The notes under the pieces: generated by a model
What the model was told of the DNA's origin: nothing
Seen by the model: only the letters and a program-made list of their open reading frames with translations
Database searches by the model: none
Shown here: in pieces, positions 34,601-60,895 of the stretch
How positions within the stretch are numbered: position 1 is the stretch's first letter
Layout: each line of letters opens with the position of its first letter
NCBI RefSeq assembly: GCF_014131695.1
Contig: NZ_CP036346.1
Span: forward strand, 744,001-808,000
Direction of reading: 5' to 3'
Source: Thomasclavelia ramosa DSM 1402
GTDB taxonomy: Bacteria; Bacillota_I; Bacilli_A; Erysipelotrichales; Coprobacillaceae
DNA length: 64,000 nucleotides
Made by a program: the position numbers and the translations under genes

Positions 34601-34630
34601 TTGACGTAATTAAAAATACAGTGCTATAAT
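34601..34630 (+). promoter_or_regulatory. strong promoter of a candidate small RNA
   Basis: TTGACG (34601-34606), 18-bp spacer ending TGC, TATAAT (34625-34630). No start codon with a ribosome binding site follows before the terminator-like hairpin. Confidence 0.65.
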
Positions 34631-34636
34631 GAATAT

Positions 34637-34750
34637 GTTATTTTTATAAAAAAATTAGAATCGAGGATCATACTTTTCCTGCACGGGAAAGAATAGATTT
34701 TCGTGCACAAAAAAAACACATAAATTTGGGTCTATTTACGTGTTTTATAT
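34637..34750 (+). ncRNA. candidate small RNA or attenuated leader upstream of the SARP gene
   Basis: Between the promoter at 34601 and the hairpin at 34713-34746 lies about 110 nt without a reading frame. It contains a hairpin TGCACG...CGTGCA (34680-34707) and ends in a 13-bp stem with one mismatch (34713-34725 with 34734-34746) followed by T-rich sequence. It could be an independent small RNA or a terminated leader of the SARP gene 170 bp further on. From 34750 to 34919 I see only a single AACC and no clear promoter. Confidence 0.5.
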
Positions 34751-34919
34751 TTATGCAACGAAAACGTATAGTTAAACCAAGTGGTAAGAATTTATCACTA
34801 ATAAATTACTATTAAATAAAAATAATGGGCTAATACTGTAATGGGGTTTTAGAATATGACTATTTTGGTGGATAAATTTGTGGGCAAGTAACATATCTTG
34901 AAAAGTGAGGGAATTAGAT

Positions 34920-36137
34920 ATGGCAAATGATAAGATTAACGTAAATATGTTTGGAACGTTTTCACTTTCACGTGGAAATGTAACAGTTGATTTAACCAAA
35001 TTATTAGGAAAACAGTTGATTAATTTATTCCAATTATTGCTGCTTCAAAAAGGAGTTGTAATATCTAAGAATAATATTATTGATATTTTATATCCGGATA
35101 GTGAAAATCCAAATAGTGTGGTTAAGTTTTCTATTTTTAGACTTCGTAAAGATTTAAAAGCATCAGGTATTTTTAATGAGGATGAAGAAGTTATTTTAAC
35201 TGTTAAAGGTGGTTATCAAATCAATCCCAAGTTGGAATGGGTGATGGATACTGAGGAGTTTTATTATAACTGGGACAAAATAAAATATATTGATGATATA
35301 AGTGATAAGGACCTAGCATATGCTCAAAAAGTAAATCATCTATATAAAGGTAAATTATATATAACGACTAATCATTCTATTTGGATTGAACAGATGCTAG
35401 AATTTTTTCGCTCAGCATATGTTAACTGTGTTATCAAAATTTGCAAATACTACATGAAAAGAAAACAGTTTGAAAAGATGATGTCAATAAATTATCATGC
35501 TATTCTATTAGAACCATTTTACGAAGGTCTACATTATTATTATATTAAAGGCCTGATTGAATTAAAGGACTATCATAATGCGTTAAAATATTATGATGAC
35601 CTGAATGAACGCTTTTATAAAGAGTTGGGAACAGGATTATCACCGCGGTTTAAAGAGCTTTATGATGTCATTACAGAAGATATAGAAGAAGATTATATTA
35701 TTAATACTGAAAATGTTAATGAAGATTTGATTATTAATAATGCTGATTATCGAGGGTTTTACTGTGGATATGACATGTTTAAGCATATGTATGAAATTTT
35801 ACTTAAGAATGCACTTCGAGATAATAAGAAATATTTTTTGATTATTTTTGATCTTAATGCTAAAACTACAATAGAAAATCAAGTACATGTAATGAACCAG
35901 TTAAAAGAAATGATTGCTTCATCATTAAGAGTGAATGACTTGTTTGCTAAAATTAATAAGAAACAATATATTATTTTAGTAGCGTGTCAGGAAATGGACA
36001 ATGCATATACAATCATTCAAAGAATAAATAAAAAGTTTTATGCAAAATATAATAGTACTACATATCGTTTGAATTATGATGTTGCAAAAGCAAAATTATT
36101 ATATAAAAAACCAATAGAGTCTTCAGTTCAGAGTTAA
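34920..36137 (+). CDS. SARP-like transcriptional activator (winged helix + BTAD) with degenerate GGDEF-like tail
   Basis: Starting at 34920 the protein has 405 residues. Residues 5-95 form an OmpR-type winged helix (VNMFGTFSLSRGNVTVDL, LLLLQKGVVISKNNIIDILYP, VKFSIFRLRKDLK, VILTVKGGYQINP). Residues about 100-245 are a bacterial transcriptional activation domain of helical repeats (IWIEQMLEFFRSAYVNCVIK, MMSINYHAILLEPFYEGLHY). The last 140 resemble a GGDEF domain (KYFLIIFDLNA, then IASSLRVNDLFAKINKKQYIILVA), but KINKKQY replaces R-x-GGDEF, so no cyclase activity is expected. It directly precedes the fibre locus, is separated from it by a terminator, and is the best candidate to bind the AACC repeats there. 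Confidence 0.82.
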   Translation: MANDKINVNMFGTFSLSRGNVTVDLTKLLGKQLINLFQLLLLQKGVVISKNNIIDILYPDSENPNSVVKFSIFRLRKDLKASGIFNEDEEVILTVKGGYQINPKLEWVMDTEEFYYNWDKIKYIDDISDKDLAYAQKVNHLYKGKLYITTNHSIWIEQMLEFFRSAYVNCVIKICKYYMKRKQFEKMMSINYHAILLEPFYEGLHYYYIKGLIELKDYHNALKYYDDLNERFYKELGTGLSPRFKELYDVITEDIEEDYIINTENVNEDLIINNADYRGFYCGYDMFKHMYEILLKNALRDNKKYFLIIFDLNAKTTIENQVHVMNQLKEMIASSLRVNDLFAKINKKQYIILVACQEMDNAYTIIQRINKKFYAKYNSTTYRLNYDVAKAKLLYKKPIESSVQS

Positions 36138-36166
36138 GTTTTAGAGATATAACTTAACTCTTTTTT
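36130..36166 (+). terminator. terminator of the SARP gene
   Basis: AGAGTTAAGTT and AACTTAACTCT (11-bp perfect arms, 10-nt loop) with T6; overlaps the stop codon. Confidence 0.85.
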
Positions 36167-36203
36167 AGATTTTAAAAGAAAGTTATTATCTAAAACAAAA
36201 TAT

Positions 36204-36233
36204 AACCGCTTTAAAACCACCATTACATATAAT
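36204..36233 (+). promoter_or_regulatory. SARP-type promoter A of the fibre operon
   Basis: AACC at 36204-36207 and 36215-36218 (11-bp period), then 9 bp, then TATAAT (36228-36233). There is no -35 hexamer; the repeats occupy that region. The same geometry recurs at 44422, 44514 and 45476. Confidence 0.8.
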
Positions 36234-36293
36234 ATGGATGTAATGTGGGAAAAGTATCCACCGATCAATATTAAAGCAAAGGAGATAATCATC

Positions 36294-36941
36294 ATGGAAA
36301 ATAAAAAAAATAAGCTATTAATATTAATGATTGTTCTATGTATCATGGTTCCAATTGGAGGCGCAATTGCCTATTTCCGTGCCGATACTTCTTCAAGTAA
36401 CAAACTTAGTTCAGGGAATATTGGAATTGAATTGAGAGATGCTACAACAAATGAAGATGGTCAAATAACGGATGAAGGTATTAACTTTAATTTTGGTTAT
36501 CCTGGAGCTATAAAAGATAAACAAACATTTGTAAAAAATACATCAGAAAATGATTTATATACAAGAATTGCTGTTACCAAATACTGGGAAGATGAAAGCG
36601 GTAATAAGGTGATCGATGCTAATCCTGGTTTTATTGAAATCATTACTAATGATAAAGATAATTGGATTATTCAAGATAGTGATGAAAATAAAGAAGTTGT
36701 TTATTTCTATTATAAAAAATTATTAGAACCAGGGGCAGTAACAGATTTATTTGTTAATCAAATCAAATTATCTGGCAATATCGATAACACTAATGCAATG
36801 CGTTACTCTGGTTTAAGTGCTCATTTAAGTTTTGAAGCTGAAGCAATTCAAAAAGTTGGTGCTGAATCTGCAATTTTGAGTGAATGGGGCTTAGAAGTTA
36901 AAATTGATAATAATGATGTTATTCAGTATGTAGAAGAATAG
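36294..36941 (+). CDS. TasA/camelysin-like protein 1, SipW-type signal
   Basis: The 215-residue secreted protein has a SipW-type signal: a basic N-terminus, a hydrophobic helix (about 9-24) and GGAIAYFRADTSSSNKLSSG around the cleavage region. The mature part is beta-rich with PGAIKDKQTFVKNTSENDLYTRI, the family's conserved strand, and a W...YFYYKKLLEPG motif. It is most like protein 4 (43712). TasA-family proteins assemble into extracellular fibres. The ATG at 36294 follows AAAGGAGATAATC; a longer frame upstream would overlap the promoter -10. First gene of an operon running to 44353. Confidence 0.85.
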   Translation: MENKKNKLLILMIVLCIMVPIGGAIAYFRADTSSSNKLSSGNIGIELRDATTNEDGQITDEGINFNFGYPGAIKDKQTFVKNTSENDLYTRIAVTKYWEDESGNKVIDANPGFIEIITNDKDNWIIQDSDENKEVVYFYYKKLLEPGAVTDLFVNQIKLSGNIDNTNAMRYSGLSAHLSFEAEAIQKVGAESAILSEWGLEVKIDNNDVIQYVEE

Positions 36942-36961
36942 TCGTGGAGGAGGTCATTAAA

Positions 36962-37651
36962 ATGCGAGGTAAAAATATTTTAAAAACATTAGTTGTAACA
37001 ACAGTACTAGCACTATCTATGACTACTATTCATGCAGCTGATACTAATGTATCATTTGATGGTGATGCAGAAGACTTTATTTTTTTGGATGGTAGTCAGG
37101 ATTTATTTGATAATTTTAAAAATATTATGCCTGGTGAAGTTCGAACACAAAATATTGTTTTAAAAAATGATGATCATCGAGAGTTAAGATTTTATTTGAG
37201 TGCTGATGTCTTAGATAGTCTTGATACTGATACTTCGGGATTAAGTGTTTATAATATTACAATTACTAATGAAGGTGAAGAGTTTTATAATGGAACACTT
37301 GATGATCTGGCTGCTTTAAGTTCTGGAAGAATGAGTGAAGATACGTTACTTGCTAGTTTACAAAAAGGTGAAACTACTACAGTAACAATGACATTGGAAG
37401 TTAATGGTGATTCAATGGATAATACGTATCAAAATCGTGAAGGATTGATCAAGTTTAATTTTAGTGTTGAAGAACTTGATGATCAAAGTACTATTGTTGA
37501 AGTAGTTAGAAATGTTTATGAAAGTATCAAAACTGGTGATGCAACTGTAATTGCACCATTACTTGGATTGGTAGCAGTTAGTGGATTTGCAGTTATATTC
37601 TTATTGAAGAAGAAAAAGCATAAGGAGGATTGCAGTCATGAAGAAAATTAA
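36962..37651 (+). CDS. secreted surface protein with noncanonical sortase-type C-terminus
   Basis: The 229-residue protein has an ordinary Sec signal (VVTTVLALSMTTIHAA), a beta-rich region containing a TasA-like phrase (MPGEVRTQNIVLKNDDHREL), and a C-terminal SIKTGDATVIAPLLGLVAVSG, then a hydrophobic helix and KKKKHKED. The IKTGD-helix-KKKK order is that of a cell-wall sorting signal with an unusual pentapeptide in place of LPXTG. It may be the wall-attached base for the fibres. No sortase gene is in the window. It overlaps the next gene by 14 bp. Confidence 0.7.
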   Translation: MRGKNILKTLVVTTVLALSMTTIHAADTNVSFDGDAEDFIFLDGSQDLFDNFKNIMPGEVRTQNIVLKNDDHRELRFYLSADVLDSLDTDTSGLSVYNITITNEGEEFYNGTLDDLAALSSGRMSEDTLLASLQKGETTTVTMTLEVNGDSMDNTYQNREGLIKFNFSVEELDDQSTIVEVVRNVYESIKTGDATVIAPLLGLVAVSGFAVIFLLKKKKHKEDCSHEEN

Positions 37652-38471
37652 AAAAGTCATTATTGTTCTAGCTATGATGATTGCAATGGTCGGCTTTGTT
37701 AATCCAATGACAGTTGATGCTAGTAGAACCTATAAAGTAACATTTAGGGCAGGAGCTCATGGTACATTTGCTGCTAATGGTGAAAATAAGATTACTATCG
37801 ATGTAGCAGCAAACGAATGTTTTCCGGATATCCCTGATATCAATGTAGAAGATGGCTATTATTTAATGGGATGGAATAAAACCCTTCCAGCTAGTGGTGA
37901 GGCTGTTACTGGTGCAATGACATTTGTAGCCAAATATCAAGTTTTGACTAATGGACGCGAATATTCGATCAATTATGTTAATCAGGATAATGTTCAAATA
38001 GCCACAACAAAAGTTATGACAGCGCCACTTGGCAGTACAGTGAACGAGAGAGCTAAAACGATTGCTGGCTATGAATTGATTGGAGCTGCTGATTTATCAA
38101 TTACAATTGGTGAAACAGATAATTCAATCACATATGTATATCGAGATTTAAATGTAACACAGGAATATGTTGAAAGTGTTGTAGTGATTCCTGTAGGTTT
38201 ACCTGCTAACACTGCAGTATCAACTGCAACTGGTGGAGCAGGAACTGGTGGTACTACAACTAACCAAGGTGATGATACCGAAAATGTGACTGATTCAGAA
38301 ACTCCGTTATCACCTGGGGATGGAACAGAGGAAGTTCCTGATGATCAGACGCCTTTAAAAAAAGGTGAAGAAGGAATTAATTATACTTATTTGTATATTA
38401 CAGGTGGAATTGTTTTACTGTTAATTGCTGCTGGTATCTTTATTCTTAAAAGGAAACAAGCAAGTGAATAA
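37638..38471 (+). CDS. secreted repeat protein (MucBP/InlB-like) with C-terminal membrane anchor
   Basis: The 277-residue protein has a Sec signal (residues 1-28), an InlB-B-type repeat (YKVTFRAGAHGTF, GYYLMGWNKTLPASGEAV), a MucBP-like strand set (YSINYVNQDNVQI, SITYVYRD), a Thr/Asp/Pro-rich linker, and a C-terminal membrane helix (YLYITGGIVLLLIAAGIFIL) ending KRKQASE. No LPXTG-type motif is visible, so it is probably membrane-anchored. It sits between the IKTGD protein and the first SipW peptidase, overlapping the latter by 8 bp. Confidence 0.68.
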   Translation: MKKIKKVIIVLAMMIAMVGFVNPMTVDASRTYKVTFRAGAHGTFAANGENKITIDVAANECFPDIPDINVEDGYYLMGWNKTLPASGEAVTGAMTFVAKYQVLTNGREYSINYVNQDNVQIATTKVMTAPLGSTVNERAKTIAGYELIGAADLSITIGETDNSITYVYRDLNVTQEYVESVVVIPVGLPANTAVSTATGGAGTGGTTTNQGDDTENVTDSETPLSPGDGTEEVPDDQTPLKKGEEGINYTYLYITGGIVLLLIAAGIFILKRKQASE

Positions 38472-38979
38472 AATAAGAAAAATTAATAATATTGTTTCAA
38501 CGATATTATTGATCTTATGCTTTATATATTTGATTATAACACTTGGCCCAAGATTGCTGGGGTATGAGGTAAATGTTGTATTATCGAATAGTATGGAGCC
38601 TGTTTATTCAACTGGAGAATTATTACTAGTTAAACCAGCTAAAGCTGATGAAATAAAGGTAAATGATATTATAAGTTTTAAAGGCTCAGGTGTAAGCGGT
38701 AATGTGATAACTCACCGAGTAATTAAAATAGACCAAGAAAAACAAGTATTTATTACTAAGGGTGATGCTAATAGTAGCCAAGATTCAAACCCAGTTGCCT
38801 TTAGTCGATTAAATGGGATAGTAAAGATAAATATTCCTTATATAGGATATATTTATGGAATGATCCAATCAATGATTGCAAAAATAATTTTGGCTGGTCT
38901 AGTGTTGATTTATATAATCGTTAATCTGGTAACAAAAAAGAAGCTTAACAGTAACGTCAGTGAGGAGGAAGCTAAATGA
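38464..38979 (+). CDS. sipW: ER/archaeal-type signal peptidase I, SipW-like (copy 1)
   Basis: From a GTG at 38464 the protein has 171 residues with an N-terminal and a C-terminal membrane helix. It carries the ER-type Ser-His dyad: Ser in SNSMEPVYSTG and His in VITHRVIK, then FITKGDANSSQD, the box D of signal peptidases. SipW removes the special signal of TasA-like proteins. The GTG is chosen because AAAGGAAAC lies 7 bp upstream. Its stop overlaps the vWA gene start (ATGA). A second copy lies at 43199. Confidence 0.9.
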   Translation: MNKIRKINNIVSTILLILCFIYLIITLGPRLLGYEVNVVLSNSMEPVYSTGELLLVKPAKADEIKVNDIISFKGSGVSGNVITHRVIKIDQEKQVFITKGDANSSQDSNPVAFSRLNGIVKINIPYIGYIYGMIQSMIAKIILAGLVLIYIIVNLVTKKKLNSNVSEEEAK

Positions 38980-41873
38980 AGATATCTAAAAAAAGAAAAC
39001 AAAATAAGTTTACTAGAAAGATAAAAACACTGGTTTTGGCATTAGCGATGATAATACCAGCGGCTGGAACTAACTTAATTGTTGAAGCGGAAAATAACCC
39101 TGGCTCTACTACTAGTAGTGATGGCCTAGTTACTGTTAATAAAACTTCAGAAAGAGTTGGCGATAATCGGTATAAAATCAATTTGGATTTAGCTACTGGA
39201 AAAGCCCAGGATAGTGTTGAGGCGATTGGTAATGATATTGTTCTAGTATTTGATATTTCAAATAGTATGGCTGAAGATGAACATGGAAATAGCACATCTT
39301 CAAATGATAAAAAACGTCTTACTAAAGCTAAAAACGCTGCAATTGAGTTTTTGAATAATAGTAAAATTTCTGGAAATAAAAAGAATCGATATTCAATTGT
39401 GACATTTAATTACTATGGTACAGTAGAACAAAATCTAACAAGCAATCTTGAAACCGCAAAACAAGCAATTAGAGATGTCGAATTAGGAAATAATTCGGAT
39501 GGTGGAACCAACATTCAAGCAGGGCTTTATAAAGCTAGAACTGTTTTAAAAAATGCTAAATCAGAAAATGGAATTATTATTTTATTAAGTGATGGTGGTG
39601 CGACAGGAAGTTATAAACTAAATAATGAACGCAATAATGGTTATTTAGTTAATGATTATAGCGAAGCGACCGCTACTGATAAAGCTTTAGGATATAGTGG
39701 TAGATATACTTTTGGGGAAAATGCAATCAATTATGATAGTGTAATTAAGGGCGGAAGAAATGATTTTACATTAGACTTATATTTAAATAATAGTCACTAT
39801 TCTTTAAATAATGCAGCTGCTACATTAGCTGAAAATGAAGCATTATTAGCAAAGAAAAGTGGAAATACAATTTTTACGATTGGTTACACAACTGGAAGTA
39901 GTGTTAATAGTTTCTTGAAGAATGTAGCTACTCAAGGTGAAGGATATGCCTATAGTTCCTCTAGTGATTTAAGCGGAATTTATGAAAATATTGCTAATGA
40001 GATTGTGACTCGATATGAAACAATCATAAAAAATGGGATTGTCAATGATCCAATGAGCCAGTATGTTGATCTTTTAGATTTACCTGATGGCCGTTATGAT
40101 AACTCTGTAGCTGATAAATTAATATTTGATCGTGGTTATGTTATTGTAAGTACAGAAAATGGTCGAAAAAAAATCACTTGGTATGTAGGTGATGTTGAAA
40201 AAAACAGTCAAGCTCATTTAGAATATTATGTAGCAGTTAAAGAGGAATATAAGGATGGTACAGATTATCCAGCCAATGACCCAACCCAGTTAGTCTATAA
40301 AAATTATATTGATAAAGATTCTACATTGGATTTCAATGTACCAACAGTTAATGAAGAATTGCCAATTACAAGTGCAACTCTTACTGTAAAAAAGGTTGTA
40401 AACAATTCTAGTGAAGATAAGACATTTATTATTCATGTGGTTGGTCGAGATAGTGAAAATGCAGTAATTTATAAAACAGATTTAATCTTAAAAAATAATG
40501 AAGAAGTTCTTTTAGAAAATTTACCGTTTGGTAAATATACCGTAACAGAAACTGTTCCAATGGAATATAAGCTAGAAAGTACAGAAAGTGGTTATGCTCA
40601 AACAAACTTATCTAGTGGAAATATTATCGAACTTAGTCAAAATAAAGATGCAGCTAATGGTTATGTGACTCTAACAAATTCATTTGGTCATGTTGGATTC
40701 TTTAAAGCGACTGATGAAAAGACTAATTATCTTCCTGCTGGAAGTGAAACAATCAATAACTATGAATATAATGTAAGTGGAAATGTTAAATCTACGACAG
40801 TAAAAGCCCCACAAGACGTTGTCTTGCTATTAGATAAATCAGGCAGCATGGATGAGTCAATGAATGGCAGCAGTCGTCTAACCCATTTAAAAAATAATGT
40901 AATTAAATTTATAACTAAGTTATATGAACATAATCCTGACAGTCGTGTATCAGTAATTACTTTTGCATATAGTGCAGATGGTTCGATCACTAATAATAAT
41001 TTTGTGAAGTTATCAGATATTAAATCAGGTAATGAAACATGGTACACATATTTAACTAAAAATAATGGTGGTATCAAAAATATTAAAGCTTCAGGAGGAA
41101 CGCAAATTGATTTAGGTTTGTATGAAGTTCGTAATCAATTATCAAGTGCAACTGGAGAAAATAATCGTTCAGTAATCGTCTTTACTGACGGTCAACCAGG
41201 AAATAAGGGATTTAATACTAGTTATAATGATTATGATGATAATGGGTATCGGGTTGGAGCTGAGGCTTTAAATCAAGCTGATTTTATTAAGTTTAGTGGA
41301 AATTTAACAGGAATCAATAATTACATTGAAAGTAGTAATGGATCAAAGTATTATGGTCATAAAAATGATGATATTACTAAAAATCGTAGTAACAATAATT
41401 CTAATGATGCAGGCAATAGAACTAATCGTTCTGGTAAAGGTTTAGGTAAGACGATTTTTACGATTGGTCTTAATTCCAATAATTCATCATTATTTGATAG
41501 TTTCTTAACGCGTTTAGCTAGTGAAGGACATTATACAAAAGCAAATAACAGTAGTGCGATGGAAAATGCATTTAATAGTATTTTTACAAGTATTACAACA
41601 ATGGATACCGATGTTGATATTCGAGTAAAATATGATGCTAATAAGTTTGAGGTAATTGATGCTCAAGGTGGTAAGCTAGGTGGCAGTGGTACTAATGCTT
41701 ATATTGAATGGAAAGATATTATTGATGAAACTACTGGAAAATTTGTAATTGAAGGAATTAAATTTAGAAATATTGTGGCTGATGCAGGAGAACCACAGTT
41801 AACTGTGCAAGGTTATAAGGATGGTGTAACTACTGATTTAGAAGCTGCAGAAATAAAAAAAGTTGGTAATTAA
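38976..41873 (+). CDS. large secreted vWA-CnaB-vWA adhesin-like protein
   Basis: The 965-residue protein has a Sec signal (about 15-38) and two von Willebrand A domains with intact metal-binding MIDAS starts, Asp93-I-Ser-N-Ser in the first and Asp620-K-Ser-G-Ser in the second. Between them (about 466-570) is a CnaB/DUF5979-type domain (ATLTVKKVV, GKYTVTETVP, TLTNSFG) with the Lys, Glu and Asn expected for an internal isopeptide bond. The architecture resembles pilus tip adhesins. There is no C-terminal anchor, LPXTG or membrane helix, so it may be released or held by the fibres. It is coupled to sipW by a 4-bp overlap. Confidence 0.85.
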   Translation: MKISKKRKQNKFTRKIKTLVLALAMIIPAAGTNLIVEAENNPGSTTSSDGLVTVNKTSERVGDNRYKINLDLATGKAQDSVEAIGNDIVLVFDISNSMAEDEHGNSTSSNDKKRLTKAKNAAIEFLNNSKISGNKKNRYSIVTFNYYGTVEQNLTSNLETAKQAIRDVELGNNSDGGTNIQAGLYKARTVLKNAKSENGIIILLSDGGATGSYKLNNERNNGYLVNDYSEATATDKALGYSGRYTFGENAINYDSVIKGGRNDFTLDLYLNNSHYSLNNAAATLAENEALLAKKSGNTIFTIGYTTGSSVNSFLKNVATQGEGYAYSSSSDLSGIYENIANEIVTRYETIIKNGIVNDPMSQYVDLLDLPDGRYDNSVADKLIFDRGYVIVSTENGRKKITWYVGDVEKNSQAHLEYYVAVKEEYKDGTDYPANDPTQLVYKNYIDKDSTLDFNVPTVNEELPITSATLTVKKVVNNSSEDKTFIIHVVGRDSENAVIYKTDLILKNNEEVLLENLPFGKYTVTETVPMEYKLESTESGYAQTNLSSGNIIELSQNKDAANGYVTLTNSFGHVGFFKATDEKTNYLPAGSETINNYEYNVSGNVKSTTVKAPQDVVLLLDKSGSMDESMNGSSRLTHLKNNVIKFITKLYEHNPDSRVSVITFAYSADGSITNNNFVKLSDIKSGNETWYTYLTKNNGGIKNIKASGGTQIDLGLYEVRNQLSSATGENNRSVIVFTDGQPGNKGFNTSYNDYDDNGYRVGAEALNQADFIKFSGNLTGINNYIESSNGSKYYGHKNDDITKNRSNNNSNDAGNRTNRSGKGLGKTIFTIGLNSNNSSLFDSFLTRLASEGHYTKANNSSAMENAFNSIFTSITTMDTDVDIRVKYDANKFEVIDAQGGKLGGSGTNAYIEWKDIIDETTGKFVIEGIKFRNIVADAGEPQLTVQGYKDGVTTDLEAAEIKKVGN

Positions 41874-41896
41874 TAAAGAAGGTGAGGGATGACGCA

Positions 41897-42517
41897 ATGA
41901 AATATTTAGGTAGAATTAAAATGAAACGACCATTGATGGTATTGATGGTAGTGGTGACAGTCTGTCTTACTGCAGTGGGCGGAATCTACGCATGGTCAAA
42001 ACTAAGTGCATCTGTCACTAATAATATTAAGACACCAACAGTGGATACTGAAGTAGTAGAAAAGTTTGACAAAGATTCAACTGTAGACTGGTTTGATCAA
42101 GTAGAAAAAGAAGTACAATTCAAAAATACTGGAACAGCACCAGTCTTTCTAAGAGTTTCTTATGCGGAGTTTTGGAAAGATGCTGATGGCAAGGTTATTT
42201 CTGGGTTAGTTGATGGCAATGAAGTTGTTAATAAGAACTGGACTGAAGCATGGCAAAATGACTGGTTTGATGGTGGTGATGGCTGGTATTATTATAAAAA
42301 AGTTCTTCCAGCTAATGAAATGACAGCTAAAGTTTTAACTAGTCTTAAATTTGATAGCAATTATGCCGAAATTTATCAAACAGCAGATTATACTTTGAAA
42401 TTTGTTAGTGAAGCAGTACAGTATAGTGATGACGATAGTGTTAACCATCGAGCAGTACAAGCAAACTTTGGTCGTGATTTTAAAGTTATTTCTAACAATG
42501 TAATTACTTGGAATTAA
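41897..42517 (+). CDS. TasA/camelysin-like protein 2, SipW-type signal
   Basis: The 206-residue protein has the special signal (LMVLMVVVTVCLTAVGGIYAW, then VTNNIKT) and the mature pattern VVEKFDKDSTVDWFDQVEKE, VQFKNTGTAPVFLRV and DWFDGGDGWYYYKKVLPANE. Its closest local relative is protein 3 (42535): both have the W-x-D-G-x-D-G-x-x-Y-Y motif. The ATG at 41897 is preferred; GTG at 41882 precedes the ribosome binding site. Confidence 0.83.
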   Translation: MKYLGRIKMKRPLMVLMVVVTVCLTAVGGIYAWSKLSASVTNNIKTPTVDTEVVEKFDKDSTVDWFDQVEKEVQFKNTGTAPVFLRVSYAEFWKDADGKVISGLVDGNEVVNKNWTEAWQNDWFDGGDGWYYYKKVLPANEMTAKVLTSLKFDSNYAEIYQTADYTLKFVSEAVQYSDDDSVNHRAVQANFGRDFKVISNNVITWN

Positions 42518-42534
42518 ATGGAGGTGAAGATAAA

Positions 42535-43176
42535 GTGAAATTTTTAAAAATTAAAAAGACGAAGGTAGCTTTAATCTTTGCTTCAGTATGTTTGATTGTT
42601 GCGATTGGATATACAAGTGCTTACTATAATAGTACCGTCAATGTAGAAAACAAAATGGCAACGCAAGAACCGGAGATTGAATTGATTGAAAAATTTAATC
42701 AAGATTCACAATTTTTACCAGGAGAAACCGTTGATAAAAAGGTTAAATTTGCCAACAGTGGTGAAATTGATGCTTTAATCAGGGTAAGTTACAGTCAAAG
42801 CTGGATCAATCAAAATGGTGATTTTGTAAATGGTGACGTTGATAGTGTTGAAAAGAAATGGACATCTGCCTGGCAAGATGAATGGGTGGATGGAAATGAC
42901 GGCTATTTCTATTACACTAAAGTATTAAAAGCTAATACAACAACTAATATCATTTTGGATAGTCTGGTTTTATCGGAGCAAGTTTCAAATGATACTCATG
43001 CGGTGGATTATTCAGGAATAATCTATCAAATTACATTTAATTTAGAATCATGTAAAGCTACAACTGAAGGGGCACAAAGCACCTTTGGTAAAACTGCTGC
43101 TATTTCTGGAAATAATGTAACATGGAGTGATTATAAGGGTAATAGTAATCAACAGAAATCTGGAGAAGATTTTTAA
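42535..43176 (+). CDS. TasA/camelysin-like protein 3, SipW-type signal
   Basis: From a GTG at 42535 (after GGAGGTGA) the protein has 213 residues. The signal reads VAIGYTSAYYNSTVNVENKM. The mature part has FLPGETVDKKVKFANSGEID and EWVDGNDGYFYYTKVLKANT, closely parallel to protein 2, plus a longer Asn/Gln-rich tail. It is followed 22 bp later by the second SipW peptidase, its probable processing enzyme. Confidence 0.83.
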   Translation: MKFLKIKKTKVALIFASVCLIVAIGYTSAYYNSTVNVENKMATQEPEIELIEKFNQDSQFLPGETVDKKVKFANSGEIDALIRVSYSQSWINQNGDFVNGDVDSVEKKWTSAWQDEWVDGNDGYFYYTKVLKANTTTNIILDSLVLSEQVSNDTHAVDYSGIIYQITFNLESCKATTEGAQSTFGKTAAISGNNVTWSDYKGNSNQQKSGEDF

Positions 43177-43198
43177 TAACTAGGATAGGAGGCAGGTT

Positions 43199-43693
43199 AT
43201 GAAGATATTTAAGAAAGTGGTTAGCTATTTATCAATATTATGTTATGTAGTGATAATAGCATTAGTGCTTATACTTGCTCCTATGGTAGTTGGCTACAAG
43301 CCTGTAGTTGTATTATCTGGAAGTATGGAACCCACATATCCAGTTGGAAGTTTGATCTATTACAAAGCTGCTTCTTTTGAGGATATTAAAGAAAACGATG
43401 CAATCACATTTCGAGTAGATGATGATACATTAGTTACTCACCGAGTGATAGTGAAAAACGAAATTTCACAAACTTTTGTTACAAAAGGCGATGCAAATCC
43501 AACTAATGATACAAATCTGGTAGAATATCAAAATGTAGCCGGAAAGACATTAGAATTCTGCCTCCCTGTTGTTGGAACGATCTTTGCTTCATCAGCAAAA
43601 TATATTGCGGTAGCAATTATTGGTGGAATATTGTTATTAAATATTGTTTTGAGTAACCTTGTAGCGGATGAAAAAGAAAAAGTGACAGTCTAA
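43199..43693 (+). CDS. sipW: ER/archaeal-type signal peptidase I, SipW-like (copy 2)
   Basis: The 164-residue protein has N- and C-terminal membrane helices and the Ser-His dyad in VVLSGSMEPTYPVG and LVTHRVIVKN, with FVTKGDANPTND as box D. It is only moderately similar to copy 1 outside the motifs, so the two may have different substrate sets. It lies between TasA-like proteins 3 and 4. Good ribosome binding site (ATAGGAGGCAGGTT). Confidence 0.92.
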   Translation: MKIFKKVVSYLSILCYVVIIALVLILAPMVVGYKPVVVLSGSMEPTYPVGSLIYYKAASFEDIKENDAITFRVDDDTLVTHRVIVKNEISQTFVTKGDANPTNDTNLVEYQNVAGKTLEFCLPVVGTIFASSAKYIAVAIIGGILLLNIVLSNLVADEKEKVTV

Positions 43694-43711
43694 AGATAGG
43701 AGTGTAGCGAG

Positions 43712-44353
43712 ATGAGTAAAAAGAAAAGAACCATAATGAGTCTAATAGTTTTGCTAGGTTGTGTACTTGCTGTATCCGCCACACTGGCATGGTTTACAGA
43801 TAGTGATGAGACTAAGAACCGGATTAGAATTGGTGAATTTGGAATAGATGTTATCGAAAGCTCAACTAATCCCGATGCCTCTGTGAGTGAAGATGGAATT
43901 AAGTATGATGATCCAGTAGTGATTGGACAAGAAAAATCTAAAATTGTTGATATAAAAAATACTGAGGAACTAGATGCTTTCATAAGAGTGACGGTTGAAA
44001 AGGTATGGATGGATGAAGATGGAAATATCTTGAGTGATAAAGATCCTGATAAAATTGTAATTCGTGGAATTGATGAAGATAAATGGATATATAAAGCTAC
44101 TGGGGAAAAGGGTAAATCTTATTACTATCTAAAGATGCCATTAAAATCTAATGAGACTGTCAATTTATTTAAATCATTTATTATTGAAAATAATTTTACC
44201 TCACATGAGGAAACAATGTCATATGCTAATCTTAAATCTAAGATTATAATCACTGCTAATGGTGTACAAGCAGATGACGGTGCTAATGCAGTTGCTACGC
44301 AAAATTGGGATTCAATTATTGTTGAAAATGGACAATTAGTTTCTATTGATTAA
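43712..44353 (+). CDS. TasA/camelysin-like protein 4, SipW-type signal
   Basis: The 213-residue protein has the signal LLGCVLAVSATLAWFTDSDE and the mature pattern DPVVIGQEKSKIVDIKNTEE, LDAFIRVTVEKVW and KSYYYLKMPLKSNETV. Among the eight it is closest to protein 1 (shared SEDGI/TDEGI region, and N-P-D/D-A-N-P turns), so these two form one subtype. It ends the first long transcription unit, before a strong terminator. Confidence 0.84.
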   Translation: MSKKKRTIMSLIVLLGCVLAVSATLAWFTDSDETKNRIRIGEFGIDVIESSTNPDASVSEDGIKYDDPVVIGQEKSKIVDIKNTEELDAFIRVTVEKVWMDEDGNILSDKDPDKIVIRGIDEDKWIYKATGEKGKSYYYLKMPLKSNETVNLFKSFIIENNFTSHEETMSYANLKSKIIITANGVQADDGANAVATQNWDSIIVENGQLVSID

Positions 44354-44361
44354 ATCGTGAA

Positions 44362-44390
44362 AGAGATGTATTTTTATACATCTCTTTTTG
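44362..44390 (+). terminator. terminator of the first fibre operon
   Basis: AGAGATGTA and TACATCTCT (9-bp arms) with T5; just after the stop of protein 4. Confidence 0.85.
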
Positions 44391-44421
44391 TTTTTGAATA
44401 TTATTTTTCGTTTGTGAATAT

Positions 44422-44451
44422 AACCGGAAAAAAACCAAATAAAGATATACT
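44422..44451 (+). promoter_or_regulatory. SARP-type promoter B
   Basis: AACC at 44422-44425 and 44433-44436, 9 bp, TATACT (44446-44451). It is 92 bp upstream of a second copy (44514), giving tandem promoters before protein 5. Confidence 0.75.
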
Positions 44452-44513
44452 GTTAATTGTAAAAGAAAAGTTTTCTTCGATAGTTATATTAATAGAATAA
44501 GAGTTATAAATAT

Positions 44514-44543
44514 AACCAGAAGCAAACCATCAATTGTTATCAT
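44514..44543 (+). promoter_or_regulatory. SARP-type promoter C
   Basis: AACC at 44514-44517 and 44525-44528, 9 bp, TATCAT (44538-44543). The core TATAACCAGAAGCAAACCAT is identical to promoter D (45474-45493). Confidence 0.75.
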
Positions 44544-44585
44544 TGATTTGTAAAATGAAATAAAAAATAAAAAGGAGTGGAAATC

Positions 44586-45359
44586 ATGAAAAACAAGAAA
44601 AGCGTAGTGGCATCAATTGTATTATCAGGGGCATTGGTAGTTGTAGGAACTCTAGCATATTTTACTCAAACACATACAGTTGACAATAAATTAAAAACAA
44701 AAGGGTTTGGCTCTGATATTGTCGAAAAATTTACACCTAAAGAATTTAATCCAGGAGCAACTGTTACAAAAGAGGTACGAGTTGATAATACAGGAGATTA
44801 TGCTTTAGTAGCACGTGCTAAATGGGAAGAATCATGGACACGCAACGGAGAAGAATTTAAAGCAGTAGCTTATCCAGACACTAATAATGAAAGTGTTGTT
44901 GATAAAAATGGTATGAGCGATAAATGGGTTGACGGTAATGATGGATGGGCATATTATAATGAGATGATTGGAGTAAATGGACATACAGAAAATTTCCTAA
45001 CTTCAATTACTTTAAAAAATAGTGCTGATGTAGTTGGAACAGATATTAAAAACTTTTATTATACAACTGCAGCAACTGAACCGGATAAAACATCAATTGG
45101 AACTGACTCAAAAACTCAATGGGTAAAAATTTCTGAAGAAGAATTTAAAGCATTAGATGATGAAAATAACAATATTAAAGCGACATTTAAACGTGCTGAA
45201 GTTAAATCAAATGGTTTATATGATAACGCTGAGTATACATTAACAATTACTGCTCAAGTTTCACAAGCTAATAAAGAAGCTGCTGCAACTTGGATCACTG
45301 ATGCAACAAATCAAACTGTAAAAAATTTCTTAAATGGATTACCTACAGTAAACAACTAA
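44586..45359 (+). CDS. TasA/camelysin-like protein 5, SipW-type signal
   Basis: The 257-residue protein has the classic signal GALVVVGTLAYFTQTHTVDN followed by KLKT, then IVEKFTPKEFNPGATVTKEV, RVDNTGDYALVARAKW and KWVDGNDGWAYYNEMIGVNG. It pairs with protein 6 in the VEKFTPK start and the C-terminal YTLTITAQVSQANKEA strand. It forms its own transcription unit between two SARP-type promoters and a terminator. Ribosome binding site AAAAGGAGTGG. Confidence 0.87.
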   Translation: MKNKKSVVASIVLSGALVVVGTLAYFTQTHTVDNKLKTKGFGSDIVEKFTPKEFNPGATVTKEVRVDNTGDYALVARAKWEESWTRNGEEFKAVAYPDTNNESVVDKNGMSDKWVDGNDGWAYYNEMIGVNGHTENFLTSITLKNSADVVGTDIKNFYYTTAATEPDKTSIGTDSKTQWVKISEEEFKALDDENNNIKATFKRAEVKSNGLYDNAEYTLTITAQVSQANKEAAATWITDATNQTVKNFLNGLPTVNN

Positions 45360-45369
45360 TGAAGCCACG

Positions 45370-45399
45370 AACACTCTAACAATTGTTAGAGTGTTTTTC
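45370..45399 (+). terminator. terminator of protein 5 gene
   Basis: AACACTCTAAC-AATT-GTTAGAGTGTT (11-bp arms) with T5. Confidence 0.85.
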
Positions 45400-45475
45400 T
45401 TTATAAGTTAAGACAATTATTGATTTTTAGATTCAATAAAAACATTAAAATAGAATATTAAGGAAAGTGAAATAT

Positions 45476-45505
45476 AACCAGAAGCAAACCATGATTATTT
45501 ATAAT
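45476..45505 (+). promoter_or_regulatory. SARP-type promoter D
   Basis: AACC at 45476-45479 and 45487-45490, 9 bp, consensus TATAAT (45500-45505); serves proteins 6-8. Confidence 0.8.
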
Positions 45506-45591: not shown

Positions 45592-46320
45592 ATGAAACGA
45601 AAAAAGAGTTTGATTGCAATTATTTCGTTATCAGCATTTTTAGTTATAGGTGGGGCAGTTGCTTATTATAATAGCACAACGAATGTTGATAACAAATTAA
45701 AAACTGGACAGTTTAAGTCAGAAGTTGTGGAAAAATTTACACCAAAAGATAATTGGGAACCCGGAGATAAAGTTACTAAAGAAGTAGGTGTTGAAAATAC
45801 TGGAACTGGTAATATTGTTTCTCGAGCAATGTGGAGTGAAACATGGAAAACAGCTGTTGGTGAAGATATTACAGTTACAAGTGCTGATCCAAGAGCTAGT
45901 GTTGTTGAAAAAGAATATGGTAATAAATGGATATATTCAAATAGTGATGGATATTTCTATTATGACGGAATAATTTCTTCGGGTGGTAGAGCCGAGGATA
46001 AGTTTTTAAAATCAATCATGTTAAGTGGAGATGTCGATTTTGCTGAAACTAAGAAAACAGTAGTATATTATTCGACGATGACAACTGGTGAACCAAGCAA
46101 AATAACTAATAATCCTGAAACAGGATGGGCAGTTGCCCCAAATACAGGCATTCCCAATAATGCAACTTACAATAAAACAGTTGTAACTGGTAATGGTAAG
46201 TATGCTAGTGCCAACTATACTTTAACGATTACAGTTCAAGTTTATCAAGCTAATAAACAAGCAGTCGCAGGAACCGCTTTTGAAACTGTAGTTCCTGAAA
46301 CGTATGCATTATTAGATTAA
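45592..46320 (+). CDS. TasA/camelysin-like protein 6, SipW-type signal
   Basis: The 242-residue protein has the signal FLVIGGAVAYYNSTTNVDN then KLKTG, and mature motifs VVEKFTPKDNWEPGDKVTKE, VGVENTGTGNIVSRAMWSET and SNSDGYFYYDGIISSGG. It is closest to protein 5. First gene of a three-gene unit (6-7-8) read from promoter D; ribosome binding site GAAAGGGGTACG. Confidence 0.86.
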   Translation: MKRKKSLIAIISLSAFLVIGGAVAYYNSTTNVDNKLKTGQFKSEVVEKFTPKDNWEPGDKVTKEVGVENTGTGNIVSRAMWSETWKTAVGEDITVTSADPRASVVEKEYGNKWIYSNSDGYFYYDGIISSGGRAEDKFLKSIMLSGDVDFAETKKTVVYYSTMTTGEPSKITNNPETGWAVAPNTGIPNNATYNKTVVTGNGKYASANYTLTITVQVYQANKQAVAGTAFETVVPETYALLD

Positions 46321-46340
46321 AAAGAAAGTGAGTGATAGAA

Positions 46341-47117
46341 ATGAAAAATAAGAAAAGCCTATCTGCCCTTATTTCATTAGCTGCAATTGTATTGGTTGTA
46401 GGTACATTGGCTTACTTTTCTAGAGACTTAACTGTTGAAAATAGACTTAAGACGGCAAAGTATGATACAACGATCGAAGAAGAATTTATTCCAACTGATA
46501 AGTGGGCACCAGGTGTTGAAATTAATAAAAAAGTTACAGTTAAAAATACTGGAAACGTTGATATTGTGGTAAGAGCAAAATTAACTGAGCTATGGAAACG
46601 TAGTGAAAATCTGATGGATCCTAATGATCCAGATAAAATCTTGAGCGAGGAAGGTGAAATTTTACCAAATTCATTCGTTGATGAAAACGGCATTTCACAT
46701 GATGCGGCAATTAAAAATTTTGTTCAAAATATGGTTTATGAATATGAAGATGTTAAAGATAATCTAGCAGATTATCATAATAAATGGATTCATTATGGTG
46801 ATTATTACTACTATTTAGGTGTAATTGGTGAAGATGAAGCATCAAATGGATTATTAAATAGTGTGAAGATGAATCCGTTATTAGATGCAACAGTTAGCGG
46901 CAGTCATACAGTCGTTGAAGCAGATGAACAAGGGACTACAACTGTAACTAAAAAATATCAATACGGAAAATATGGATATGATAGCGCAGATTATACTTTG
47001 ACAGTTGAAGCGCGGACAGTCCAAGCTTCAAAAGCAGCAATTAGGGATGCGTTTGGTGATAATGTGATGGCTGTGTATTTAGCCGATCATTTTGCTACGA
47101 TTGCTGAACAACAATAA
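46341..47117 (+). CDS. TasA/camelysin-like protein 7, SipW-type signal
   Basis: The 258-residue protein has the signal IVLVVGTLAYFSRDLTVENR then LKTAKYDTTIEEEF, which is nearly the same as in protein 8. Further shared blocks are APGVEINKKVTVKNTGNVDI and KMNPLLDATVSG. Proteins 7 and 8 therefore look like a recent tandem duplication. It carries a KWIHYGDYYYYLGVI version of the W...YY motif. The ATG at 46341 is preferred over a GTG at 46332 that lies in the purine tract. Confidence 0.86.
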   Translation: MKNKKSLSALISLAAIVLVVGTLAYFSRDLTVENRLKTAKYDTTIEEEFIPTDKWAPGVEINKKVTVKNTGNVDIVVRAKLTELWKRSENLMDPNDPDKILSEEGEILPNSFVDENGISHDAAIKNFVQNMVYEYEDVKDNLADYHNKWIHYGDYYYYLGVIGEDEASNGLLNSVKMNPLLDATVSGSHTVVEADEQGTTTVTKKYQYGKYGYDSADYTLTVEARTVQASKAAIRDAFGDNVMAVYLADHFATIAEQQ

Positions 47118-47139
47118 AGAAAAGGAAAGGTGAAGAAGA

Positions 47140-47853
47140 ATGAAAAATAAAAAAAGTTTAGGTGGAATATTATTATTAGCATTAACAGTAGGAGTAGTTG
47201 GGTCGTTAGCGTATTTTAGTCAGGAATTGACAAAAACAAATGAATTTAAAACAGCAAAATATGATACTACAATTGAAGAAGAATTTACTCCACCAACTGA
47301 TTGGTTACCAGGAGTTGAAGTAAATAAAGATGTAACAGTAAAAAACAGTGGTAATGTTGATGTAGTTGTTAAAGCAACATTAACAGAGTCATGGACCCGC
47401 GGTGATGAAACTTTAAGCAATACATTTACTGATGAAAATGGTTTAACACAAAATGCGGCTTTATTGGCATTGCCAAATGTTGTGAAATATACTGATGATA
47501 TAGAGTTGGCGGCACAAGCAGGTAAATGGGTTGAATATGAAGGAACTTATTATTATATGGGAGCAATCAAAGGCGGTAATAGTTCAGCTTTATTATTAGA
47601 TAACGTTACTTTAAATCCACTATTAGATGTAACTGATAAGAGTGTTACTACGGTTGTAACAACTGATGAAAATGGAACAAAAAAAGAAATTACAACTACC
47701 GAAAAAGGTAAGTACGGATATGATGATGCTAATTATAAATTAACAGTAACTGCAAATACGATTCAAGCAACAGCTTCAGCTATTAAAACTTGGGGAAGTA
47801 ATCCAGTTGTAGATTACATTGTTGCTAATTATGCAACAATTGCTGAAAAATAA
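47140..47853 (+). CDS. TasA/camelysin-like protein 8, SipW-type signal
   Basis: The 237-residue protein has the signal ALTVGVVGSLAYFSQELTKT then NEFKTAKYDTTIEEEF, and mature motifs LPGVEVNKDVTVKNSGNVDV, KWVEYEGTYYYMGAI and TLNPLLDVTD. Tandem duplicate of protein 7. It ends the fibre region and is followed by two terminators. Confidence 0.86.
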   Translation: MKNKKSLGGILLLALTVGVVGSLAYFSQELTKTNEFKTAKYDTTIEEEFTPPTDWLPGVEVNKDVTVKNSGNVDVVVKATLTESWTRGDETLSNTFTDENGLTQNAALLALPNVVKYTDDIELAAQAGKWVEYEGTYYYMGAIKGGNSSALLLDNVTLNPLLDVTDKSVTTVVTTDENGTKKEITTTEKGKYGYDDANYKLTVTANTIQATASAIKTWGSNPVVDYIVANYATIAEK

Positions 47854-50856: not shown

Positions 50857-53800
50857 TCAATGGGGGTTAGTGATGCCAGAAATCTTTTTGAAATCATCTT
50901 CAGATAAAGGCTTATTAAGATAATAGCCTTGAATAACATCACAAGATAAATCTTTTAACACTTTTAGCTGTTCTTTAGTTTCTACTCCTTCAGCGACACA
51001 AGTTATATCTAATTGTTGACACGTATTAATGATATTTTTGATTACTAATTTAGCACGGTGATCATGATAAATATCGCTTACGATCTTTCGATCAAGTTTA
51101 AGTGAGCTTAAGTGCAGCGAGTATAGTATATAAATATTGCTATATTCAGCACCGAAGTCATCTAAAGCAATTTTATATCCTTCAGCTAAAAATTGATTAA
51201 CAATATTTTTTAAACTAGCAGAATCAATTGATCCAATGGATTCAGTAACTTCTATTTCAATTAATTCTTTAGGAATATTATAGCTTTCAACGATTTTATT
51301 AGTTTCTTCTAAAATACCAGGTTCTAAAATAGTTGCTCGAGAATAATTTATTGAAATTGGGAAAGGCTTCCAAGTAGTTTTTAACCAGTTACTGAGAATT
51401 CGGCAGACATCTTTTAGAATAAATAAATCTATATGTCTAATTAATCCTGCTCTTTCTATTTCTGGAAGAAAACGCCCTGGTGGAATAATTCCTTTTTGAG
51501 GATCGTTGTATCTGATCAATGCTTCAGCACCACAAATTTGATTAGTTTTAGTATGAGCCTTAGGTTGTAAAAAGGTTAAAAATTTTCCATTTACAAAAGC
51601 AGTATTTAAACGCTCTAATATTTTTGCTATCGACTGATCAGATTTAGCTAACTTAGAGTGTATTTTTTTATTTACAGCATGTCTTGTTTTTTCCTCTAAT
51701 TGCTCTTGCATTGTTTCTAACACAAGTGAATTCTTTTCCCAAACTTTTTCACAAATGATCCATTGATCATAAAATTCAATTAGCTCTTGGTAAAAAGTAT
51801 CATATATATGAATGAAGTTTTCATACGTAATATCTGGACAAAGCACTATAAAATGGGCATTACTGATCCGATAACATGATTTTTTATCAAAAAATTTAGT
51901 AATTGTTTGTGCGATGAACTGTAAGATTTCATCACCTTGGACGATGCCATACCGCTGATTATATTTTTTTAGATTAATGATAGTTATTTCAATCATTCCA
52001 AAAGTAGAATAAATATCAGTATTTATATTTCTTATAGTCTTAATATAAGAATCGTAGTTAGATAAACCGGTTTTTTGATCATGAGTAAGGGCATAAGTAT
52101 ATTTAGTCTGCAAATTATAAATAGTGGTAATTTTACAAATAACATCAGCAATCACCTCAATAGATTTTGAAGCGTTAATATGTTGTTTAACAGTTTCCAC
52201 GAGCAAGCATGATACAAGCTTGTTTTTGTTATAAATACCGATAAATAATAATGGTAGTGGTACATCCTTTTCAAAATATAGTTCTGTAATATTTTTATAA
52301 CAAAAATGGTTTTTATCTAATATTACAAAGTATTTTTGTGGTGCGACAGCACTAACAATATTTTCAAAGTGTTCCTTACTGAAATGAGTATTTTTAATAT
52401 TAGAGATTTGATTATTATAATTCCACTTTGAAGTCAGAGAAAATTTTTGTTGATTATCGCTTTGATGAAATAAGAGAACATTTTGGGCATTAAAGAATGT
52501 TCCTAATTGTCTAAGAATATTATCAAAAGCATTTTCTCGTTGAATATTTTTATCTATATTTTTCCAGCTTATTTCTAAAAATTGTTGTAAATCTGAATCC
52601 TGATTTTCATATGCTAAGTTAAAGGGAATATCCTGCATTTCAATTTTTCTTACAGTATCGCCCTCATAATGAGACAGCTGTTCTTTAACATACATAAGTT
52701 TATCGATTTTGGATACAAAACATTCACGCATATTTGTTTGTTCAAAGTCGATTTGTTGAGAACAAAATGGGCACGGTGATTTACGATTATGTAATAATTC
52801 ATAACATTTTATTGGCTTTTTAACTGGGAAAATACAATTAAATATGATTTGTCCAGTCGGGCTCATCGATAAAATTGTAAAATCATTAGGGTTAATAATC
52901 ATTTCAATCTTGAAATTAAATTCAACTTTTTCAATTTCTTGATAAGATAGTATCTGGTTTTTTCCGCGTCTTTTAGCTGTATCTAAGGCATGGAGTGCGC
53001 ATTGATGAATTTGACTATAGCTCATATTTTCTGAAAATAGATAGATTAAACCACCGGTGAGAGTTAACTGGGTCTCAATATCTTGAAAATGATAAATACT
53101 AGAAAGCTTTTTTTGAAGTTGTAAGGCTGCTTGATAGATAACTTTTTTTGATTCAGCATTATGATAAAAAATAGAGAATGTATCACCATTGATTCGTGCT
53201 GCAATACAGCTGGAAGAAATACTTTTCTTGATCATTTGTCCCATTTGACGAATGATTTGGTCACCGAACAAGAAATTCCCACTGTGATTTATCTGTTTAA
53301 AATTATCAATATCTAGCAAAAGAAAAGCATTGACTTTCTTAGGATCATATTCTTTCTTCAGCAATGTTTCAATCATTAGCTGTGAAGTAGACTCATTATA
53401 TAAGCTACTCATCTCATCAATTTCTGCTTTATTTTGCAATGCTAATTCACGTCTTTTTTGGATATCAATATTTTTGGTATAAATAAATAATATTACATCG
53501 TTATTTTGAGGAGAAATAGTTGTTTTCATATTTAAGGATACCCATAATATCATTCCATTTAAATATTTCTGCCTAAATTCAAAAGTTGGAATATCGGTAA
53601 AAGTACGGATATAGTCATTAATTTGATTTTTAGAATATTTTTTCTCAAATTTTTTTTGATCATCCTCATTAGCAATAGTCTGTAATAAATATTTATAAAT
53701 ATCATCGTATGTGTAATCAGAGAGCTGTTTTTCATACTGTTCATTGGAATGTAAAGAAATATCTTCGATAAAATCACGAGAAAAATTTAAACGGATGTTT

Positions 53801-56424: not shown

Positions 56425-56642
56425 CGACAAAATCACCTCAATTATCGTTTATATATATTACTTTTATTATATCATTCATCGAGAAACATATAAAAAAATT
56501 AACAAGTAAAAAGATAAGTTAATGTAGTTAAAATGTGATTTTGTAACTGATTTATAACCAATTTATGTAATTTTATGGAAAATTTAATTACTAAAAAATA
56601 AATATTAACAATTAAAGTAGAAAAAACTGATTTAATAAATAA

Positions 56643-60775: not shown

Positions 60776-60790
60776 GTTATAATATGGTTG

Positions 60791-60895
60791 CTAAGATAAA
60801 AACACGAACTTGTTGGTAGTCAAGTTGTGCATTTTGCATCAGTAACCTGCCCTCCTGAGGTTGTCCGTTCTTAGAAGTAAATTTCAAGGAGGATA
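60791..60895 (+). ncRNA. probable yjdF riboswitch
   Basis: A TATAAT at 60778-60783 is followed by a structured leader: closing stem CTAAGA/TCTTAG (60791-60796, 60869-60874), internal hairpins AACTTG/CAAGTT (60807-60826) and AACCT/AGGTT (60844-60862), and then the ribosome binding site of a yjdF-family gene. yjdF RNAs in Firmicutes bind azaaromatic compounds and control such genes. The call rests on context plus foldability, since I could not run the Rfam model. Confidence 0.6.

Follow-up and report, generated by a model that had tools for sequence, protein, structure and literature searches.

Four sites in a fibre locus carry tandem 11-bp repeats in place of a -35 box, and we consider it likely that these are SARP-type operators read by the product of the gene at 34920, through which three fibre transcription units are co-activated in a manner set by c-di-GMP. 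In this reading, binding, activation and the response to c-di-GMP are inferred; the sites, their geometry, the SARP and GGDEF folds, the conservation of the I-site and the recurrence in relatives come directly from sequence or prediction. An initial annotation of the locus had proposed the SARP reading of these promoters, and it is supported by the Pfam domains of the 34920 protein, its AfsR fold, the box geometry, recurrence in relatives and a site in Longicatena. The class of mechanism is already known; its novelty here lies in the bacterial lineage, in the genes proposed as its targets and in the attached sensor domain. SARPs have been described almost wholly as activators of Streptomyces antibiotic clusters, and one review calls them genus-specific (PMC10972967). 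In keeping with the initial annotation, which knew of no such system in this bacterial group, the literature searched, mostly excluding subscription papers, contained no description of a SARP together with a TasA/BsaA fibre system, nor of SARP-GGDEF proteins.

Repeat sites and transcription units of the fibre locus

The features of the locus, given in coordinates of the window (the whole 64-kb stretch of DNA analysed), are as follows.

34601..34630, + strand: sigma-70-type promoter, TTGACG-18-TATAAT (11/12 consensus matches; function inferred)
34920..36137, + strand: gene of the SARP-type regulator, 405 aa (ATG at 34920; ORF from a GTG at 34905)
35760..36104, + strand: degenerate GGDEF domain, residues 281-395 of the regulator (structure match, alignment, conservation)
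about 36131-36166: inverted repeat and T run directly 3' of the SARP gene, before box 1 (seen in the sequence)
36201..36233, + strand: putative SARP box 1 and -10, TATAACC-N4-TAAAACC-N9-TATAAT (sequence reading, recount)
36294..44353, + strand: transcription unit A (Pfam/TIGR profiles, alignment, relatives)
44359..44388, + strand: intrinsic terminator hairpin between units A and B
44419..44451, + strand: putative SARP box 2 and -10 TATACT, upstream member of a tandem pair (reading, recount)
44511..44543, + strand: putative SARP box 3 and -10 TATCAT, downstream member of the tandem pair (reading, recount)
44586..45359, + strand: transcription unit B, BsaA-family SipW-dependent matrix protein 44586 (TIGR04090)
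45369..45396, + strand: intrinsic terminator hairpin between units B and C
45473..45505, + strand: putative SARP box 4 and -10 TATAAT (reading, recount)
45592..47853, + strand: transcription unit C, three BsaA-family matrix proteins 45592, 46332 and 47140

Direct reading and a scripted recount confirmed the AACC pairs of the initial annotation at 36204/36215, 44422/44433, 44514/44525 and 45476/45487, all with a period of 11 bp, as well as the exact 9 nt between each second AACC and a -10 hexamer (TATAAT, TATACT, TATCAT and TATAAT in site order). The claims that no site has a -35 box and that TAT or ATAT precedes each first AACC were likewise borne out: the best match to TTGACA at a spacing of 15-19 nt is 3/6, and the four sites can be written as TATAACC-N4-nnnAACC-N9-TATNNT. 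A longer context, AATATAACC[A/G]-N6-AACCA, is common to all four. The proposal of three transcription units stands, with the small correction that the sites at 44422 and 44514 lie in tandem in front of a single unit, which leaves four promoters for three units.

On the + strand of the window, AACC-N7-AACC occurs five times, four of which are the fibre sites, and no AACC pair at any other spacing from N4 to N12 is present in the fibre locus. A Markov simulation of the window predicts 0.03 full sites in 64 kb with both strands counted, whereas 4 were observed. The genome-wide search called for earlier returned AACC-N7-AACC-N9-TANNNT 10 times in the 3.25-Mb genome and 5 times in the reversed control. 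Four of these 10 matches are the fibre sites and one more is intergenic, adjoining a SARP paralogue; the two examined of the rest (2560516 and 3196468) lie inside genes. The ATAACC-fronted pattern gave 7 genome matches and none in the reversed control. An off-period control with a 10-bp period, ATAACC-N5-WAACCA, showed no enrichment over nine genomes (14 matches vs 17 in the control) and recovered none of the four fibre sites. Random scatter of the motif without a link to TasA-like genes, which would have refuted the proposal, was not found; the motif is non-random and linked to fibre genes.

Unit A encodes a BsaA-like protein, an LPXTG protein, a MucBP protein, a SipW and a VWA/GBS104-like protein, together with the BsaA/TasA-like proteins 41882 and 42508, a second SipW (43199) and a further BsaA/TasA-like protein (43712). 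Against the BsaA-family profile TIGR04090, with its curated cut-off of 60 bits, the products of 44586 (271 bits), 45592 and 47140 (263 bits each) score above the threshold and that of 36294 just under it (55 bits); the 46332 product was assigned by alignment with those of 45592 and 47140.

Upstream, the promoter at 34601..34630 probably drives the SARP gene, implying a leader of about 285 nt. The leader (34636-34919) contains hairpins, one of them terminator-like, and could be a cis-regulatory RNA; its fold is only moderately better than those of shuffled sequences (z -2.6), and it matches no Rfam family. As regards autoregulation, the region upstream of 34920 showed no paired AACC or TGTGAC motifs with the 11-bp spacing. 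Elsewhere in the window, an azaaromatic (yjdF) riboswitch lies at 60786-60884 (Rfam RF01764, 81.8 bits).

A SARP with a degenerate GGDEF domain

The 34920 protein had been called SARP-like, and its BTAD (27.8 bits) and Trans_reg_C (27.1 bits) domains both score above the Pfam cut-off. Pfam and structural matches together fulfil the definition of the SARP family, namely an N-terminal OmpR-type winged helix followed by a BTAD. In an AlphaFold2 model built from 19 sequences (mean pLDDT 87), residues 4-256 find AfsR as their best structural match (Z 18.9); EmbR also matches the model (Z 17.3). Known SARPs recognize direct repeats that recur every 11 or 22 bp, the 3' repeat lying about 8 bp from the -10 (PMC10936776). 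Sites of this geometry, with 11-bp repeats near a -10, adjoin the 34920 gene, an association of position only, without binding data. To find relatives of the protein, a scan of genome contigs with the single sequence yielded 0 hits and one with a three-row alignment 9.

The point missed by the initial annotation is a degenerate GGDEF sensor domain on this SARP, which, as far as alignment and model can tell, looks built to sense c-di-GMP. Residues 281-395 of the model match GGDEF structures (Z about 14), and a C-terminal profile finds diguanylate cyclases (E 1e-7); the Pfam GGDEF profile alone stays below its cut-off (16.6 vs 23.8 bits required). The domain does not qualify as an active diguanylate cyclase, the GG(D/E)EF motif being replaced by NKKQY; in all 28 sequences compared the motif is absent, with NKKQY or similar letters instead. 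It does qualify as carrying an I-site, defined by RxxD and two further arginines: R337, D340, R368 and R300 are kept, their PleD counterparts being R359, D362, R390 and R313. D340 and R368 are 28 residues apart, the same spacing as D362 and R390 in PleD, and R300 aligns with the matching arginine of diguanylate cyclases in a profile alignment. Among 19 sequences the GGDEF-like domain has five invariant residues, one F and these four; in the set of 28, D340 is retained in 28, R337 in 27, R368 in 26 and R300 in 25. The chance that the four named positions fall among the five invariant ones is about 7e-7, a rough guide only because the relatedness of the sequences is ignored. Survival of the RxxD could also be partly inheritance, the motif being common in GGDEF domains. 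The genome holds 39 GGDEF domains. Near the fibre locus, at 50857-56436, lies the gene of a very large PAS/GGDEF/EAL protein of 1859 aa with three GGDEF stretches, which are among the 39.

Recurrence in relatives and alternative readings

The search of related genomes suggested earlier found the same promoter architecture again in relatives, in front of fibre and surface-protein genes, several of them adjoining a SARP gene. Fibre operons of several genera of the same family have a similar gene order, and many fibre promoters of related genera carry TGTGAC-N5-TGTGAC instead. A family-wide scan for this motif with a -10 found 26 sites vs 0 in the control; 25 of the 26 lie exactly 10 nt from the -10, although 8-10 nt were permitted. 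TATAACC and TGTGACT are in register, the first base standing 27 nt before the -10 in both, and the consensus T-R-T-R-A-C-Y fits the two motifs. SARP genes adjoin the fibre operons in L047, L099, L100 and L041, and G039 and G053 have one box each, beside or at a SARP gene. Boxes precede scattered large secreted proteins in G045 and G046, with no SARP within the stretches examined around them; in G033 the fibre promoters carry TGTGAC boxes, and no SARP was found on the 50-kb contig bearing these. The genome of the window itself contains two further SARP genes. One ends a type IV pilus-like cluster (L012:6006-11843; G000:2174005-2179842), in which an ATAACC repeat separates it from pilT. The other (L052:8250-11610) lies behind a surface-protein gene whose promoter has TGTGAT-N5-TGTGAT and TATTAT, by its letters a second box class within the same genome.

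Longicatena caecimuris, a near neighbour in the tree, has the closest orthologue of 34920 (50% identity). The only match to AACC-N7-AACY-N8-10-TATAAT in its genome lies about 400 bp beyond the end of the SARP gene, in a promoter position shortly before the point where the signal peptide of a large surface protein begins. Given that this sole AACC site is next to the SARP gene, the 34920 type is favoured as the reader of AACC. The surface-protein gene (L177:11695-17400) is interrupted by a single in-frame stop downstream of the signal peptide. Two other family members with orthologues of 42-43% identity (G016 and G037) have no BsaA/TasA-like genes and no AACC-type site. No clear box adjoins the orthologue genes of G016, G037, Emergencia and Holdemanella, and thus a pairing of SARP and box is not claimed there. 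The combination seen in the window was found in one species only.

Chance occurrence in AT-rich sequence around ordinary promoters is very hard to maintain: the bare pattern is only twofold above its reversed control genome-wide, yet the excess over expectation within the window (4 vs 0.03), the extended pattern (7 vs 0) and the position of the four sites, all intergenic, on one strand and before fibre genes, speak against it. The repeats might also be operators of an unrelated regulator, or a single promoter that was duplicated together with the fibre genes, in which case their periodicity would reflect common descent and not a SARP. Indeed, the sites at 44514 and 45476 are identical across AATATAACCAGAAGCAAACCAT, and they precede paralogous genes of 44% identity. 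We nevertheless judge this explanation improbable, as the sites at 36204 and 44422 diverge between the repeats with AACC, spacing and -10 preserved, and other genera keep the architecture with different letters, including at scattered surface-protein genes.

A further possibility retains the SARP operators but assigns them mainly to the type IV pilus-linked paralogue G000:2174002, or to both SARPs in common, with pili and fibres co-regulated. Repeats of the ATAACC-N5-ATAACC type lie about 30-100 bp upstream of the pilus-type SARP in G000, G002, G005 and G008, the last three of which carry them without having a 34920-type SARP, and the site G000:2175302 near the paralogue has TATAAT at 9 nt. 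Since an almost identical repeat thus stands in front of the paralogue gene, cross-regulation is possible and pilus-type SARPs may read AACC. However, these repeats and their -10-like sequence do not face the SARP gene but the opposite direction, where no gene was seen, while it is the 34920 gene that directly adjoins the fibre promoters and its Longicatena orthologue that has an AACC site of its own alongside; moreover, the two types have different recognition helices. We therefore judge this possibility, the main rival, to be rather unlikely; that the 34920 protein is the binder of the fibre sites, and that it activates, is inferred.

Proposed mechanism and comparison with known systems

With the 34920 protein taken as the reader of the fibre sites, a putative model of their activation can be proposed. 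AfsR binds two 11-bp repeats as a side-by-side dimer, on which sigma region 4 docks in place of the -35 element (PMC10936776). By analogy, the two direct repeats would stand in for the -35 box before the -10, and the 34920 protein would most likely bind them side by side as a dimer and recruit RNA polymerase, sigma region 4 being offered a docking point by the SARP instead of by a -35 element. The missing -35 is consistent with activation via sigma region 4 and RNA polymerase, the activation itself being inferred. BsaA/TasA-type SipW-dependent fibre proteins, signal peptidases and a VWA-type adhesin would then be switched on together. Because the GGDEF domain, though degenerate, keeps its allosteric c-di-GMP site intact, the activity of the SARP is probably set by c-di-GMP via the I-site; binding of c-di-GMP and the response to it, in either direction, are inferred. 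Perhaps c-di-GMP bridges the two protomers on the repeats through their C-terminal domains. Two domains and a c-di-GMP dimer share the I-site in diguanylate cyclases, which makes such bridging a natural, though speculative, idea.

More broadly, we see an even chance that a c-di-GMP-sensing SARP family, combining winged helix, BTAD, catalytically dead GGDEF and intact I-site, controls surface fibres and adhesins in Erysipelotrichales and some neighbours via 11-bp tandem T-R-T-R-A-C-Y boxes replacing the -35, with specificity shifted between the TATAACC and TGTGACT classes; bridging by c-di-GMP may act here as well. SARP promoter logic appears to govern fibres and adhesins in gut Bacillota, and the fibre genes appear to be switched on by a kind of activator known elsewhere from soil bacteria that make antibiotics. 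A functional I-site would connect the biofilm signal c-di-GMP directly with the transcription of fibre genes, in bacteria that possess dozens of GGDEF domains.

Among known regulators, EmbR of Mycobacterium resembles the 34920 protein in joining a winged helix and a BTAD to an extra C-terminal domain, which is an FHA domain in EmbR and a GGDEF-like domain here. AfsR and the Streptomyces SARPs share with it the OmpR-type DNA-binding domain, the BTAD and 11-bp repeats near a -10 without a good -35 (PMC10936776, PMC10972967). Unlike them, 34920 comes from Erysipelotrichales, not actinomycetes, and lies beside fibres and adhesins, not antibiotic clusters; its C-terminus is a degenerate GGDEF domain in place of the NOD/TPR of AfsR, and the repeat letters, TATAACC or TGTGACT, differ from those of Streptomyces SARP repeats. 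PelD and other degenerate-GGDEF receptors, which are linked to biofilm matrix production, likewise keep the GGDEF fold and the RxxD I-site with the catalytic motif lost (PMC7288161, PMC7112168, and partly general knowledge). These receptors are not DNA-binding activators, whereas in 34920 the GGDEF domain, whose c-di-GMP binding is inferred, is fused to a SARP. As for the output, BsaA/SipW of Clostridium perfringens and TasA/SipW of Bacillus subtilis are similar systems of SipW-dependent polymerising matrix proteins (PMC7395162), the present proteins scoring up to 271 bits on TIGR04090; the passages of PMC7395162 consulted do not mention a SARP. In contrast to these systems, the present locus is larger, combining eight paralogues, two SipW-type peptidases, a VWA/GBS104-like adhesin and a SARP.
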